The translations under genes were made by a program, and so were the position numbers. Positions 2,131-10,172 of a stretch of DNA of 20,649 nucleotides are shown in pieces. Position 1 is the first letter of the stretch; every line of letters begins with the position of its first letter. The stretch is from a virus, in the IMG/VR virus record IMGVR_UViG_3300044833_000005, positions 1-20,649 of that record, one strand, 5' to 3'. The notes beneath the pieces were generated by a model. That model was given only the letters and a program-made list of their open reading frames with translations, made no database searches and was not told the DNA's origin.

Positions 2131-2538
2131 TTAGTTAGCTGCCGTATAGTTCACAGTCAAAGTCGGTGTAGTGCCCCCTGTAAAGGTAGGCACAACCGTG
2201 AAAAAGTCATAGAGCACTGTAATAGCCGGATGTCGATTGGCATTAGCATTCGTAACGTTAGTTTCAAGTACGTCACAGATTGCCGCCACCGCACCACTTC
2301 CACGCATACAACCGGAAATCACAATAGAAACGGTCGCAGGCGCACCAAGAATAATCTCGGAAAATGTCACCTTTGACGTAGCTCCAATATCGTTAGCAAA
2401 GGAACCTGTCGTACCGCCCGAAACGATTCCGGTAACTGTCCATTGCTGTCGAAGTTGAGCACCTGTCTTTGTACCCGTATCAGGCTGTGCGACTACCAAC
2501 GATGAAAGTACCAACAGCAATACGATTAAACGTTTCAT
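2131..2538 (-). CDS. Small secreted beta-rich protein of unknown function
   Basis: This is a 135-aa protein beginning MKRLIVLLLVLSSLVVAQ, a clear Sec signal peptide with a probable cut at VVA|Q around residue 18. The mature part is rich in Thr, Val and Gly, looks beta-stranded, and contains two cysteines (77 and 88) that could pair outside the cytoplasm. It has no family I recognise. Its ATG overlaps the tape-measure stop by ATGA, so it is very likely translationally coupled to that gene. It is followed 22 bases later by another signal-peptide gene, the fibre-like protein, and the two leaders are similar in design. It could be a partner or chaperone of the fibre-like protein or a small envelope-modifying protein; neither can be shown from the sequence. 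The gene call is secure from coupling, leader and codon use. Confidence 0.85.
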   Translation of the reverse strand: MKRLIVLLLVLSSLVVAQPDTGTKTGAQLRQQWTVTGIVSGGTTGSFANDIGATSKVTFSEIILGAPATVSIVISGCMRGSGAVAAICDVLETNVTNANANRHPAITVLYDFFTVVPTFTGGTTPTLTVNYTAAN

Positions 2539-5291
2539 CTTTTCCTTCCCGTATCTAAGTTACGACTAAGCGCCTTAGACGTTTTTGAGTTAGGGTTATG
2601 GATGTCTGCCGAAATAACATCCGGTGCGTGCGTATGAACTGCTTGCTTCGCTTCCTGCTTCGCAATGACTCGCACAGTATGCTCATCAATTTGTTGAACA
2701 ACAATAGCCGTACTTCCATCATGGATTACATGCACAGCCAAGCTAGTTCCACCATTAACACTAGCCCCGTTATTACTTACCGAAGTTGCTCCGCTGTTAA
2801 TAGCTTCAAGTAACTGACGATTCTTTGCCGTTGCATCGGCATTTATAACAAACTCACCATTAGATAGCCATGTGGGAATACTATCGCTATTCTTAGTTCC
2901 CGGTCCAGTAATAAATCCGCCCCATGCTTTGCCTTGCGCGGCTGTTCCTACTGATATTACAGCCGCCATTCCAGCCGTAGCAAGCGCTGCATTTGCCCCA
3001 AATGAAAAAAGTGATACTGCTTCAGCTAAGTCCCATGCCGGACCTTGTAACACTTCAATCGCTGCAAGTTGCGCCCCTGTAACTAATGCAATAGCCGCTA
3101 TGGAAGTAATTGTACTTTGAGCCGTTTGCTTTGCATCTGGGGGCTTAGGCAAAGTAAGTCCAAGTGCTTCTACAATGAGATATTGAATACCTAATTCCAC
3201 TAATGAACTTATTAAACTTGCAACCGCCTGCCGCGCCGTATCTACTAAACCTGTTTTAAAACTCTTTCCAAATACGAGCGTTTGTGCGACCGCATTACCT
3301 AAACCTTTTTCAAGCGTGCTAAAAAATTGCGTAAAATCTTTATCAAGATTTTGAATGACTTGCTTACCCACACTTTGAAGTGATTGAAAGTCTGTGAGTA
3401 ACCCGCCCCAAATCTGTTTAATATTGCTTGCAAGTGTTCCACCTGTAAGCTCATTATTCAATTGATTCTGTTGCAACGATACTTGCAATGATAGCGTTTT
3501 GTACTGTCCAAGCGTAATAACTTGATCGTTGTATGCCTTAGTAATTCCTTGTTGCTTAATGGTAAGTTCTTCGGTTAATCCAATTGTTTGTGCATATATC
3601 TTGTTTGCTTCAGCAGAAACTTGCTTATCCGTATTTAGCTGTGTTAGCTTCTTTCGTTCTGTTTCTATCTCTTGTTCATTCAAATCGCGGAAATCTTTTC
3701 TAAGCGTTTTACGAAGATTTTCAATTTCTGTTGTTACACGCAATGCTTGCCCGTAACTGCCAAGCAATCGCGTCTGTTCAGCAAGCGATGCGTTGTAATC
3801 CTGCATCGCCTTCGCTTTCTTTTGGTCATCTTCAAGTTGAACATTTGCCGTTGCTGATGATTGAATCCTGCTTGTTTGATCAGATGTCAACGGGAACTTA
3901 GGATCATTACCCGCTTGCGCGGTCAACTTCTCAACTTGCGCTTGAATCTTTGTTGCTTCCGTTAGTGCGCCAACGGCTACTGTTGATGCGTGATACTTCT
4001 CAAGCATCTTATCAAAGTTAGCATTATGTCGAATGATTTCATCGGTAAATGAATTGTATTCTTTTTTTAACGCATTAACATTTTGCGTAAGCGCTTCCGA
4101 TACCGCAGGAATGTTACTATGTTCATGCGATGCAGCCTCTAACTGCGTTGCGACTAAAGCCCGTTCCTGGTCCGCTGTTACAGCTAAACCGCTTGCCCTC
4201 GCGTCGGTCAATTCATCATCAAATATCTTTTTCTCTTGGCGAACAGCGGCAAGCATGGCTGATACTGTTGCACCATTTGCTTCGGCTGTTAAAACTTTAT
4301 CTTTGGCAATGTATTCTTTTTTATTATCTAAAAGTTTATTCCAATATGCTTGTACAACTAAACGACCATTTTCTGTTGCTGCAAGCAATGGAGCTAAATC
4401 GTCGCCCGTCAATGTTTTTTCAAGAGCATTAATGATATTAAGCTGCTTTCCTACATCGTTCATATCATCAAGCAATGCTTTATGCGTATCTGTCGCGGCA
4501 TTACGCACTAATTCTGAATGCTTAATAAATTTATCGGCATCAGCAGTATCAAATGTTTTAGCTAATTTTGCTGGTGCATCAGACATACCAAGAGCATCGT
4601 GAATTATTTGATTATAATAATCACCGTATCGCTTTATTTCTACAAATGCTTCAGACCACCAATGCGTTTGTGCTTTGATCAATTCGTTAATACCGCTCAT
4701 ATCAACACTAATAGACTTAAAGCGTTGATCACCAAGCATTGCAACATACTTTGCTAACGGTCCTTCCGTCAAACCAATATAACTTTCTTTTAATTGCAAC
4801 AGACGATCATTACTGCGATTATGACTTTCAGCTAGCTTTAGCTCCGCTTCCATTAGGGCAAGAGCCTCTTTCTCTAGCTCCCGATAGACGAGCACAGCCC
4901 CCGCCACGGCTGCTACAGCGAGCGCAGCGACGATCAAAGGCCCTGCCCCTGCCGCCGCTATGCCGACATTGCCAAACGCCCCGCCTAACCGCCCCATACC
5001 CAATTCCACGCCCACAACACGAGCAAGCAGACGTGCGAATCCGTTCTCTAGGCCGCTTGATGCTTGAGCAGCGGCATTAACCGGAGGTGTGAGACTGGTT
5101 ACGGCGCTAGCAAGATTGCCAATTTGTGAGCGCAGTGTGCTAGTTGTTACAGAAGTATTTTGTAAAGCTGCATTAAGACTTGTTACTGATCGTGCTGCAT
5201 TCGTTGATGCAACTTCAATACCATTGATCTTAGCAATGATATTGGAATCAATCTGATCCGTTATTTGAATGACAATAGGCTGCGTGCTCAT
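2535..5291 (-). CDS. Tail tape measure protein
   Basis: This 918-aa protein is the longest complete gene here and follows the tail chaperones, as expected for a tape measure, which sets tail length and is thought to help DNA enter the cell. A hydrophobic stretch (about 109-136) is followed by long helical, Gln/Lys/Glu/Ala-rich coiled-coil regions (about 140-650). A second hydrophobic zone lies near 715-800. The C-terminal block GGFITGPGTKNSDSIPTWLS followed by NGEFVINADAT is a hallmark of tape measure C-termini. Its ATG overlaps the preceding gp10-like stop as ATGA. Using the usual rule of about 0.15 nm per residue, the tail would be near 140 nm; that is an inference. The N-terminal hydrophobic part (about 4860-5090) looks richer in G+C than the rest of the gene. 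Confidence 0.95.
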   Translation of the reverse strand: MSTQPIVIQITDQIDSNIIAKINGIEVASTNAARSVTSLNAALQNTSVTTSTLRSQIGNLASAVTSLTPPVNAAAQASSGLENGFARLLARVVGVELGMGRLGGAFGNVGIAAAGAGPLIVAALAVAAVAGAVLVYRELEKEALALMEAELKLAESHNRSNDRLLQLKESYIGLTEGPLAKYVAMLGDQRFKSISVDMSGINELIKAQTHWWSEAFVEIKRYGDYYNQIIHDALGMSDAPAKLAKTFDTADADKFIKHSELVRNAATDTHKALLDDMNDVGKQLNIINALEKTLTGDDLAPLLAATENGRLVVQAYWNKLLDNKKEYIAKDKVLTAEANGATVSAMLAAVRQEKKIFDDELTDARASGLAVTADQERALVATQLEAASHEHSNIPAVSEALTQNVNALKKEYNSFTDEIIRHNANFDKMLEKYHASTVAVGALTEATKIQAQVEKLTAQAGNDPKFPLTSDQTSRIQSSATANVQLEDDQKKAKAMQDYNASLAEQTRLLGSYGQALRVTTEIENLRKTLRKDFRDLNEQEIETERKKLTQLNTDKQVSAEANKIYAQTIGLTEELTIKQQGITKAYNDQVITLGQYKTLSLQVSLQQNQLNNELTGGTLASNIKQIWGGLLTDFQSLQSVGKQVIQNLDKDFTQFFSTLEKGLGNAVAQTLVFGKSFKTGLVDTARQAVASLISSLVELGIQYLIVEALGLTLPKPPDAKQTAQSTITSIAAIALVTGAQLAAIEVLQGPAWDLAEAVSLFSFGANAALATAGMAAVISVGTAAQGKAWGGFITGPGTKNSDSIPTWLSNGEFVINADATAKNRQLLEAINSGATSVSNNGASVNGGTSLAVHVIHDGSTAIVVQQIDEHTVRVIAKQEAKQAVHTHAPDVISADIHNPNSKTSKALSRNLDTGRKR

Positions 5292-5755
5292 AGCTTGGCC
5301 CTCGCTATGGCATCATTGCCTAAGATGATTGCACGATCAACAAATCCCGCTGGTGCTTGCGTCGAACCACCTTGGTCTAAATCTTCAATATAAGGAATGT
5401 TGTTTGTAATGAATATTGTCTGCCCCGGCTGCTTTGCAGCAAGCACACCGTTTGCAGCGTTAAGTGTAGGAGTTATATTTGCTTGCGCGGTAAGTGCTGG
5501 ATCAACCTTATGCACCCATTTACCGGCAACTACGCGGCCCTTTGGACTAGGGACGTATGCGGGAATATCGCTAACAGCGGGAGTATTTAACGTCAGTTGC
5601 CAATTCGATAATGCTTCGCCCACATCTACCGGCGTTACTTGAACTAGATCGTTAAGAATAGTGCGTGCAACGTCTTTGCTTGTTTCATTGCCAAATGCTC
5701 CTAAACGCTTTTGCAAAGTTCGCATCTGGGTAGCCAAGTCGTATAAATCACGCAT
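5288..5755 (-). CDS. HK97 gp10-like tail/neck completion protein
   Basis: This 155-aa protein matches the pattern of the HK97 gp10 family: an N-terminal helix, TPVDVG at 41-46 followed by a NW pair near 51-52 (the family's PVdTG...nW), and a C-terminal NNIPYIEDLDQGGSTQAPAG block (about 117-137). Members act at the head-tail joint or as tail completion proteins. The start has an AAGGG ribosome site and lies 8 bases inside the end of the second chaperone frame; its stop overlaps the tape measure start as ATGA. The position is unusual. This family is normally encoded before the tail terminator and tube genes, whereas here it sits between chaperone and tape measure. The family assignment rests on motifs read by eye. 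Confidence 0.8.
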   Translation of the reverse strand: MRDLYDLATQMRTLQKRLGAFGNETSKDVARTILNDLVQVTPVDVGEALSNWQLTLNTPAVSDIPAYVPSPKGRVVAGKWVHKVDPALTAQANITPTLNAANGVLAAKQPGQTIFITNNIPYIEDLDQGGSTQAPAGFVDRAIILGNDAIARAKL

Positions 5756-6077
5756 CGTTACCCTTTTCTTTTATACGCTGTAAGTGCGCCGAATCCAATG
5801 CTTTAATAAAGTACAACAATGAATCCGTCTGTTCATCATCTAAGCCGTAATACTCCGCATACTGCGTTATTGCTATCCAAGGGATACGTCCTAGTCCCAT
5901 TCCCTGCGACCGCTCCGAATCAAGATCAAAAAACGCTTCAAGGTAAAACACTAAACCTTGTCGTAACATTGGAGCATTCAAGATGCGATCTGGAATTGGT
6001 TGCCCGGTTCGCAATGCTTGTCTTACAATGTTCCGCTCCATACTGCCAAGCTCCAAGGTGTAGAGCAGAACATCCAC
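5748..6077 (-). CDS. Tail assembly chaperone, downstream frame (made by -1 frameshift)
   Basis: This is a 109-codon open frame in the -1 frame relative to the preceding gene, lying just before the gp10-like and tape measure genes. That is where the T part of a lambda G-GT pair sits. The only near-5' start is a GTG that directly abuts the upstream TAG, and there is no ribosome site at a useful distance. The segment is therefore most likely made only as an extension of the upstream protein. A slip on A-AAA-AAC gives 140 residues, then Leu, then this frame (GTG read as Val), a fusion of about 250 residues. The peptide has GRIPWIAITQYAEYYGLDDE, typical of tail chaperone second frames. The fusion would bind the tape measure during tail assembly and be absent from the virion. 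Confidence 0.85.
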   Translation of the reverse strand: MDVLLYTLELGSMERNIVRQALRTGQPIPDRILNAPMLRQGLVFYLEAFFDLDSERSQGMGLGRIPWIAITQYAEYYGLDDEQTDSLLYFIKALDSAHLQRIKEKGNDA

Positions 6078-6086
6078 TAGTTTTTT
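6028..6086 (-). promoter_or_regulatory. Programmed -1 ribosomal frameshift signal
   Basis: On the minus strand the upstream chaperone ends GCA AAA AAC TAG. The heptamer A AAA AAC (6080-6086) is in the correct zero frame, X XXY YYZ, for simultaneous -1 slippage. Six bases later (TAGTGG, 6074-6079) an 11-bp stem begins: ATGTTCTGCTC (6063-6073) pairs with GAGCGGAACAT (6028-6038), all Watson-Crick except one G-U, around a 24-nt loop. The -1 frame continues open through the next gene. Heptamer, spacer and stem all fit the known design of tail-chaperone frameshifts. Confidence 0.88.
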
Positions 6087-6499
6087 GCGTCATTCTCCCG
6101 CGTTTCAGCACGAAACGTTGTAAACTTTGCCGCGTGCTCCGCTAAGTCAAGATACAACTCAGGAAGTGTTTCAAACAACATTTTGGCATTAGCATAGTTA
6201 AACGGAATCAACTTGCCTTCCGTATCCTGTACGTCACGCCAACCAAGCAACACAGACGAACAAAATACATCAACAAGAATAGTACGTTCTCGTTTCTTAT
6301 CCAACGCACCAATGTCAATCAACCTTCGATACGGCGCGGTTGCTGTTTCAAGCGCTTTAGCATATCGTTGATTAGATTGGCCTAACCGGGTAATGATGAA
6401 AGTAGGTATAGTTCCATCATCATTGGGTGCATAGGTTACTTCAACACCTTCTTGTTCCTTCTTGCTATCCGTCTGAAATTGTTTGAATAGCGATGACAT
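6077..6499 (-). CDS. Tail assembly chaperone, upstream frame (G-like)
   Basis: This 140-aa protein follows the tail tube gene and the small 37-aa gene, and comes before the tape measure, the conserved place for the G-type tail assembly chaperone. It is mostly alpha-helical and charged, with no signal peptide or membrane segment, as expected for a cytoplasmic assembly factor. The start has a GAGG ribosome site. The gene ends in the slippery string A AAA AAC directly before TAG, so most ribosomes should release the 140-aa form and a minority should shift to the longer fusion. The upstream part of such chaperones evolves fast, so the assignment rests mainly on position and the frameshift signal. 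Residues near 40-100 (RLGQSNQRYAKAL...VDVFCSSVLLGW) resemble tail chaperones I have seen. Confidence 0.85.
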   Translation of the reverse strand: MSSLFKQFQTDSKKEQEGVEVTYAPNDDGTIPTFIITRLGQSNQRYAKALETATAPYRRLIDIGALDKKRERTILVDVFCSSVLLGWRDVQDTEGKLIPFNYANAKMLFETLPELYLDLAEHAAKFTTFRAETRENDAKN

Positions 6500-6661: not shown

Positions 6662-8194
6662 TTATAATGCAACTGTTGGAAGATACTCAAAGAAAATTGC
6701 CATCATAGTATAGCCAGCAACGTTCTTTGCAGCATCCTGCGTTATTGCAACTTCAATAGGCTTATCTTTGACAACCTTATTTAACCCGCCGCCCAATGCG
6801 AGTAAAGGAATGTCATAAATCATGCCAGAATTGTTTTTTGATAAAATCAACTGTAAACTACAATCAGAATTGTTACGAACAGCCGCTATTGCCGCGATAG
6901 TAGAAAAATATGCAGTTACAGTACCAGTTACAACAAAATCACCTTGCGTAACATTAAAACCACCAAGCACACCAAGTGCTTTAGTTGGAACAGCCGCATT
7001 GTTAATAACTAATTTCACATCCGACACATACGCATATAACGGTGTAGGATTCAATACTGTGCGATCTACAATCGCAATGCGTGATAAATAAATATCATTC
7101 GCTGAATTATATGCAGGTTCACCCGGCAAACCAACACGTGTACCAGCTTTAATGCCGGTCGCTCCGCTACGAACTTCATTATCTAATCCGACAAAGGTAA
7201 GATCGGTAGTAATTTTTGCTGCTATCGGAACATTAAACGTAAGTTGATCAGCAATAGCACCAGTCAAATATTCTGATTGCGTTCCAATACCATCATTTCC
7301 CAAGGTTCTTTCAAGCTGATAAGAACGTCGTTTGACCGACGTTGCAAGAATCGCGTTGTTAATAACCTTGCCGAAAAAGATTTGTACTTTCTGCGTTGCT
7401 GGTACATCAGCATCAAGTAACGGCGTAAAAGTAGTTATATCAAATGTTAGTAAGTGTGCGGCAATTGACAAGATACGCGCATAACCTTGATTGTTGGCCG
7501 GTGCGGTAGCAAAGTTATTAATCGCGGCATCTCCACCAACAAACACCCACTCACCAACATTCAAACCAAGTGTTGTAAAATCCAATGCGGTCGAAGAAAT
7601 TGTTACATTCACACCCGCAATAGCAATATGCAAATCACCCGCCGCCCCTTGAATGCCAACAGCTTCAAGCTGTGCCGCCGCTGGTGGAGCAGCTTCAACG
7701 GTCAATACTTTATCAGTAGTCAGTGCCCCGGCTGCAACCGCCGTAATATGAGCTAAGCCATTGTTGGCTGCATTGATAAAACCTTTCACGCTAATCAGAT
7801 GATTAACGAGAAAAATACCCAATCCAGCCGCCGCCTGAAATTGTGCCGCAGTCGCAGCCGTCATTACGATCTGCGTTCCGTTAAATGGCTGCGTTGCAGG
7901 TTTCTCAATAGCATCGGCAAAGAAAAAGCCTTGAAGCAAGCGCGTAAGATTACGTTGCGTTAAATCAACGTTGATTCCAGCTTTCGCCGTTTCATCTACG
8001 ATACTACCCCGCAAACGTTGACGAGTAGCATTAATAACTTCACGCGCCACTTGCGAAAATGTTGCACCAAAATCAGAATAGCTATTCGGTTCCATAGCAT
8101 ACCAAATAGGCGTAACGGGGAGAACTTTTAGACTCTGTTCCTCTGCGAAGGATAATCCAGTCTGATTACTATCAACTGTTGTAGGAACTGGCAT
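6662..8194 (-). CDS. Major tail tube protein
   Basis: This 510-aa protein lies between the tail terminator and chaperone genes, the place of the major tail protein that polymerises into the tube. The start has a strong GGGGAG ribosome site. The outer parts fit the phage tail tube family I know as Phage_tube_2: an early segment SFAEEQSLKVLPVTPIWYAM with a Ser/Arg-rich helix near 45-65, and a later strand KRRSYQLERTL (288-299) followed by a beta-rich half to the end. Between about 105 and 285 lies a large beta-rich insert with WVFVGGD (216-222) and an LLTFD strand, seen in other large tube proteins. The insert would probably decorate the outside of the tail. Length is well above a minimal tube protein, in line with this insert. 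No sheath gene is present, which supports a non-contractile tail. Confidence 0.85.
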   Translation of the reverse strand: MPVPTTVDSNQTGLSFAEEQSLKVLPVTPIWYAMEPNSYSDFGATFSQVAREVINATRQRLRGSIVDETAKAGINVDLTQRNLTRLLQGFFFADAIEKPATQPFNGTQIVMTAATAAQFQAAAGLGIFLVNHLISVKGFINAANNGLAHITAVAAGALTTDKVLTVEAAPPAAAQLEAVGIQGAAGDLHIAIAGVNVTISSTALDFTTLGLNVGEWVFVGGDAAINNFATAPANNQGYARILSIAAHLLTFDITTFTPLLDADVPATQKVQIFFGKVINNAILATSVKRRSYQLERTLGNDGIGTQSEYLTGAIADQLTFNVPIAAKITTDLTFVGLDNEVRSGATGIKAGTRVGLPGEPAYNSANDIYLSRIAIVDRTVLNPTPLYAYVSDVKLVINNAAVPTKALGVLGGFNVTQGDFVVTGTVTAYFSTIAAIAAVRNNSDCSLQLILSKNNSGMIYDIPLLALGGGLNKVVKDKPIEVAITQDAAKNVAGYTMMAIFFEYLPTVAL

Positions 8195-10107: not shown

Positions 10108-10159
10108 AAAAAATTTTTAAAAAGAGCGCTAGCACTGCCCCCAGACACTAACGCCCTCT
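10108..10159 (-). terminator. Rho-independent terminator after the capsid gene
   Basis: On the minus strand an imperfect stem pairs AGAG..CGTTAG (10148-10159 side) with CTAGCG CTCT (10123-10132). It has a two-base bulge and an inner CTG-GGGG-CAG helix, and is followed by TTTTT, AAAAA and TTTTTT (10108-10122). It lies directly after the major capsid stop and would end most capsid transcripts while letting some read into the tail genes. Confidence 0.8.
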
Positions 10160-10172
10160 TGCCTAACCTCTT

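Follow-up and report, generated by a model that had tools for sequence, protein, structure and literature searches.

The window analyzed here is a 20,649-base stretch of DNA, IMG/VR record IMGVR_UViG_3300044833_000005, from a metagenomic virus. Its minus strand carries the structural genes, namely terminase, portal, capsid, connector genes, tail tube, a tail assembly chaperone pair, tail completion/Neck1, and tape measure. The features in and around the chaperone pair are as follows.

6662-8194, minus strand: tail tube gene (PF18906)
5748-6499, minus strand: chaperone pair, both frames, between the tail tube and tape measure genes
6077-6499, minus strand: frame 0, short tail assembly chaperone (G-like), 140 aa, ending ...NDAKN and then TAG (PHROG 8233, PHROG 313, and the ORF list)
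6095-6099, minus strand: GGGAG, a Shine-Dalgarno (SD)-like word 8 nt upstream of the heptamer and a possible stimulator (family-wide anti-SD peak)
6080-6086, minus strand: slippery heptamer A AAA AAC, in frame (homologous site slippery in the relatives)
6077-6079, minus strand: zero-frame TAG stop, directly 3' of the heptamer (adjacent stop in most relatives)
5748-6080, minus strand: frame -1, C-terminal part (T-like), 110 codons (PF23812, PHROG 3817, and PHROG 8233)
6027-6074, minus strand: whole hairpin, 3' of the TAG
6061-6074, minus strand: hairpin 5' arm, with an 11-bp core at 6063-6073 (sequence, folding, and compensatory changes)
6027-6040, minus strand: hairpin 3' arm, with an 11-bp core at 6028-6038 (sequence, folding, and same-register stems in relatives)
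5980-6017, minus strand: second hairpin, P3, weak in the window (9/14 pairs in the family register) and stronger in many relatives
5288-5755, minus strand: tail completion/Neck1 gene, between the chaperone pair and the tape measure gene
2535-5291, minus strand: tape measure protein gene, 918 aa

Frame 0 matches two tail assembly chaperone profiles, PHROG 8233 (E 8e-24) and PHROG 313 (E 2e-23), and frame -1, counted from the CTA codon whose first base is the final base of the heptamer, matches PF23812 Phage_TAC_18 (E 3e-23, 82 bits against a cut-off of 27) and PHROG 3817 (E 3e-33). Moreover, PHROG 8233 (length 271) covers both frames, with its positions 4-140 in frame 0 and 141-251 in frame -1. 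Judged from these matches, the frames are two halves of one tail assembly chaperone family, and the predicted fusion has 140 + 110 = 250 aa. Frame -1 is open from three codons ahead of the stop-spanning CTA codon, and its homology to relatives begins at its first residue. A sequence-profile search of the PDB found no relative.

On the minus strand the junction reads ...GAC GCA AAA AAC TAG TGG ATG TTC TGC TC..., so that the heptamer A AAA AAC, as the original prediction had it, lies in frame directly before the TAG. That prediction took the site for the tail chaperone -1 frameshift that precedes the tape measure gene in long-tailed phages; this fits all of the evidence. One gene, tail completion/Neck1, separates the pair from the tape measure gene. 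As a word AAAAAAC is no rarity (7 in the window against 7.8 expected), but in-frame heptamers of the form X_XXY_YYZ occupy only 10 of the 4128 codon positions of the structural genes. It is therefore the place of the slip site, and not the word itself, that takes it beyond chance, and comparison with relatives is decisive.

Protein searches returned 239 phage records for one frame and 326 for the other, to which IMG/VR contigs were added, and 111 non-redundant junctions could be read; these relatives are not independent observations. The comparison establishes that the second frame is in the -1 register in 111/111, its first base being the final one of a slippery heptamer; this heptamer is AAAAAAC in 82, GGGAAAC in 27, and AAAAAAT and GGGAAAT in 1 each. 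A stop follows the heptamer directly in 93 of the 111 and one codon later in 12, and the junction heptamer is kept down to roughly 25-35% protein identity. Since the set was limited to matches reaching the first residue of the second frame, we also checked ten loci outside it, including those of KPP23 and Siara. Eight have AAAAAAC or GGGAAAC, in seven of them directly before the stop, and the locus L155 has AAAAAAA before a stop. Relatives with an intact chaperone pair and no slippery heptamer were sought and none was met, the sole exception being the tenth locus, L016, a short and degenerate match in a bacterial genome.

On a weakly supported tree, AAAAAAC and GGGAAAC are exchanged about 19 times, each time with a change between Lys and Gly. 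The fact that the amino acid changes at each AAA/GGG swap implies selection for slipperiness and not for protein sequence. The A-site slip codon is AAC in 109 of the 111 junctions and AAT in 2, and it is never AAG, which is the strongest such codon in E. coli. Every -1 frame in the family begins with Leu, encoded by the last heptamer base plus TNN, and this conserved first residue may be what fixes C or T as the heptamer ending. Taken together, the profile matches and the conserved junction make it very probable that a programmed -1 ribosomal frameshift produces a 250-aa chaperone fusion of the lambda G/GT kind.

We then considered the RNA downstream of the slip site. The 11-bp stem that had been described, ATGTTCTGCTC / GAGCGGAACAT, is exact: 6063-6073 pairs with 6028-6038 through a single G-U and otherwise standard pairs, and the spacer and loop measure 6 nt and 24 nt. 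Followed further, the pairing reaches 14 contiguous pairs (6061-6074 with 6027-6040, 3 of them G-U), leaving a 5-nt spacer and a 20-nt loop, and this 14-bp stem is the RNAfold minimum (-20.6 kcal/mol). Counting this hairpin, the minus strand of the entire 20.6 kb has 8 stems of such strength. When codons were shuffled synonymously with the amino acids fixed, 0 of 60 shuffles folded as well (-20.6 versus -10.4, standard deviation 2.8). To call the stem an unusually clear natural example was nevertheless an overstatement, as it ranks seventh among 76 relatives. A pseudoknot of the loop, GCTTG/CAAGC (+29..+33 with +60..+64, counted from the slip site), has all its pairs in just 1 of 16 stem-sharing relatives, the window itself, and was rejected for want of support. 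An Rfam search of the window gave no match up to E 1.

The heptamer might work with the hairpin merely incidental to it, the amino acids encoded by the arms favoring a stem that stimulates nothing. The amino acids alone indeed give a mean of 8.2 of the 11 pairs, roughly half of the relatives lack a strong stem at this place, and the single-sequence z score is a modest -2.55. However, only 1% of synonymous shuffles reach 11 pairs in the register of the window. In the 76 de-replicated relatives, with shuffles that kept the amino acids and codon counts of each sequence, the stem in that register (at least 10 of 11 pairs) is found in 13, compared with 2.6 (maximum, 7) in shuffles, and strong uninterrupted stems starting at +5..+13 are found in 33, compared with 4.2 expected (maximum, 8). 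The mean folding energy of +4..+57 is -14.9 kcal/mol, against -9.3 in synonymous shuffles (z -19), and that of +58..+111 is -16.4 against -11.8 kcal/mol (z -13), whereas the remaining windows of both genes mostly show a small excess (z +2.4 to -5.3).

The compensatory changes that the original prediction proposed to look for are present in part: 5 of the 14 pairs change on both sides. In a 13-member alignment, picked for carrying the stem, 91% of pairs are kept, compared with 40-50% when the partner is slid, and 0 of 500 column shuffles reach the observed covariation; in a wider set of 32 sequences 71% are kept, compared with 40-45%. The alignments A5-A7 were picked for carrying the stem, whereas the register, folding-energy, partner, P3, start-codon, and uninterrupted-stem tests used sequences not picked for it. 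Compensatory changes are found in the long-range pairs described below as well as in the local ones. An incidental hairpin is thus unlikely, and the shuffle tests, the folding excess, the compensatory changes, and the stem counts argue, as far as sequence comparison goes, that the downstream hairpin and its pairs are under selection. Since about half of the relatives lack a strong unbroken stem next to the slip site, a stem is not essential everywhere.

Among the relatives, the 5' arm, which encodes Glu/Asp-Val-Leu-x-Tyr, pairs with one of three places. The local partner, at +40..+53, is the form seen in the window. A compact partner ending by about +42 is used in Loki, L110, and L144, and a long-range partner at +103..+119 is used in L091, L095, L090, L030, and others, with up to 17 contiguous pairs. 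In the long-range stem the codons just 3' of the slip site pair with the codons for N-A-P-E-L about 100 nt on, as at the following positions.

L091:705-820, L095:705-820, and L030:1439-1554: long-range stem, +1..+120 after the slip site

The long-range stem is present in 16 of 60 relatives, the local stem in 15, and both in 1, so that the two exclude each other almost completely, and when the long-range partner was slid by up to 6 columns there was never more than one such stem. The 5' arm of the window has no long-range partner, its longest run there being 2 pairs. The long-range form encloses the further hairpin P3, which lies at +63..+100, beginning about 62 nt beyond the slip site. P3 has at least 8 contiguous pairs in 16 of 60 relatives, against a null of 3.5, and reaches 14 of 14 pairs in L116, L098, and L100. 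RNAalifold recovered from the long-range set 8 inner P1 pairs only, with a weak energy of -4.6 kcal/mol, and the branched form therefore rests on the register, slide, and synonymous-shuffle tests. An Rfam search of seven relatives gave a single match, below threshold, in L144, where positions 644-735, overlapping the slip site, resemble the hammerhead HH9 (27 bits against a gathering cut-off of 52, E 0.003); this is probably a chance similarity of branched structure.

On a tree from which the structured region was left out, the three forms need about eight changes, a rough number, since the tree has few strong branches. We lean, by a small margin, toward the reading that the stimulator has been kept while its architecture turned over, the same 5' arm having repeatedly switched between compact, local, and long-range partners, all under synonymous-site selection. 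If so, nature has supplied several alternative stimulators of frameshifting for a single slip site and a single protein. In the small part of the literature that could be searched, we found no published description of partner switching or of the long-range branched form.

Upstream of the slip site, complementarity to the 16S anti-SD sequence, averaged over the 76 relatives, peaks in the 8-mers that end 4-7 nt before the heptamer (z about -4.5 versus synonymous shuffles). An SD-like word is found there in 38 of the 76, compared with 23.5 ± 3.1 in shuffles, and is absent from half. This is only suggestive of an upstream stimulator in a dnaX-like layout.

By the mechanism that we propose, most ribosomes would read frame 0 to the TAG and make the short chaperone of 140 aa in abundance. 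Others would encounter the 14-bp hairpin, 5 nt away, while tRNA-Lys occupies AAA and tRNA-Asn occupies AAC; the two tRNAs would then re-pair one base back, on AAA AAA, and translation would resume at CTA GTG GAT..., yielding a rare 250-aa fusion. Pairing of GGGAG with 16S rRNA may add tension. The role of the C-terminal TAC_18 part of the fusion would be to bring subunits of the tail tube to the tape measure. We infer the shift itself, its frequency, and its stimulation by the hairpin and the SD-like word from the comparisons above, and the roles of the short form and the fusion from those of the lambda chaperones (PMC5009743). In E. coli, shifting is much weaker at A_AAA_AAC than at A_AAA_AAG (PMC5009743), and re-pairing from AAC to AAA is poorly tolerated by bacterial ribosomes (PMC4066793). 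The shift efficiency may accordingly be low. Given the weakness of AAC heptamers in E. coli, the strong RNA structure 3' of the slip site would matter more here, as perhaps would the SD-like word.

The possibility that the second frame is a separate gene was also considered. Here ribosomes would re-initiate either at the GTG of TAGTG (6075-6077), which overlaps the stop, or at the ATG at 6039-6041, which has GGAG 9 nt upstream. Given these two possible starts, the claim that the second frame lacks a good one was overstated; neither of them is conserved. The window alone has GTG as codon 2, and any start codon (ATG, GTG, or TTG) is found there in just 2 of the 76 relatives; no start codon is shared among them, and 19 lack both ATG and GTG throughout the first 40 codons of the frame. 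Furthermore, GGGAG lies at least 15 nt from the GTG, and residues upstream of the candidate starts are conserved: residues 1, 4, 5, and 7 of the -1 frame precede any shared start, with Val at 4 in 68/76, Leu at 5 in 68/76, and Tyr at 7 in 69/76. Coding selection thus extends to the first -1 codon, and with no conserved start the second frame does not appear to be independently started, which leaves a separate gene very improbable.

Two other explanations do without a shift of ribosomes. RNA polymerase might slip on the run of six A in the window and so produce mRNAs with altered numbers of A that are then read normally. The GGGAAAC variants argue against this, as 27 of the 111 relatives use that heptamer and have no such run, and in the cases described from bacteria the run is about nine residues of A or T long (PMC5009743); we consider it more doubtful still than re-initiation. 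That a single gene was split by sequencing or assembly error, as might be suspected in a metagenomic virus record, can be dismissed for practical purposes, since the same split and a slippery site are found in 111/111 relatives, sequenced isolates included, and in none of the 111 are both parts in one open frame.

Programmed frameshifting by the ribosome, the reading that we prefer, has well-known parallels. The lambda slip site is of the GGGAAAG kind. The window resembles lambda gpG/gpGT in that the -1 shift site falls close to where the first chaperone frame ends, with the tape measure gene farther downstream, and in the proposed production of a low-frequency fusion beside an abundant short form. 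It differs in having AAC, an adjacent stop, a strong 3' hairpin, and one gene before the tape measure gene. Counterparts of the lambda chaperone frameshift are widespread in long-tailed phages (PMC5009743). Within the family, frameshifts have been predicted for gp12/gp13 of Acinetobacter phage Loki, at an AAAAAAC adjoining the stop (PMC5313236), and for gp18/gp19 of Burkholderia phage KL1, at a GGGAAAC adjoining the stop with an mfold stem-loop within 35 nt (PMC3483164). Both share with the window homologous proteins, gene order, and a heptamer directly before the stop, and the site in the window therefore belongs to a known kind. Those papers made single-genome predictions without a family-wide comparison of RNA structure, and Loki has the compact hairpin in place of the +40..+53 stem of the window.

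E. coli dnaX has the same arrangement of an upstream SD-like word, a slippery heptamer, and a hairpin about 5-6 nt on, but its heptamer is A_AAA_AAG and its shift shortens the product, whereas that of the window has AAC and would extend it. The IS911 stimulator, with its three-way junction (cited in PMC5009743 and PMC4066793), is, like the long-range form of the family, a branched RNA on the 3' side of a -1 site in bacteria; the window has a simple local hairpin instead, and there is no sequence relation.

The frameshift itself is thus textbook phage biology and had already been predicted in the family. What is of value here is the comparative evidence: the slip site shared by all relatives examined, the stem preserved through compensatory changes, and the three partners of one 5' arm. 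The relatives amount to a ready-made set of natural constructs with which to find out what shapes of downstream RNA cause bacterial ribosomes to slip on weak AAC heptamers.

Joined fusions are annotated in the public records of RcMotherGoose, KL1, Loki, AH03, RcThunderbird, and Siara. In L017 (phage 73), L019, L021-L024, and many other phage records, the second frame is entered as a gene in its own right, starting well within the conserved region, except that L023 leaves this frame without annotation. Where it is listed separately or is absent, the fusion product is missing from the record. Elsewhere in the window, a 16-bp stem (6 G-U) lies on the minus strand at 10120-10160. It falls between the capsid gene, which covers positions from 10173, and the next gene, which reaches to 10090, and is a possible terminator or processing hairpin.
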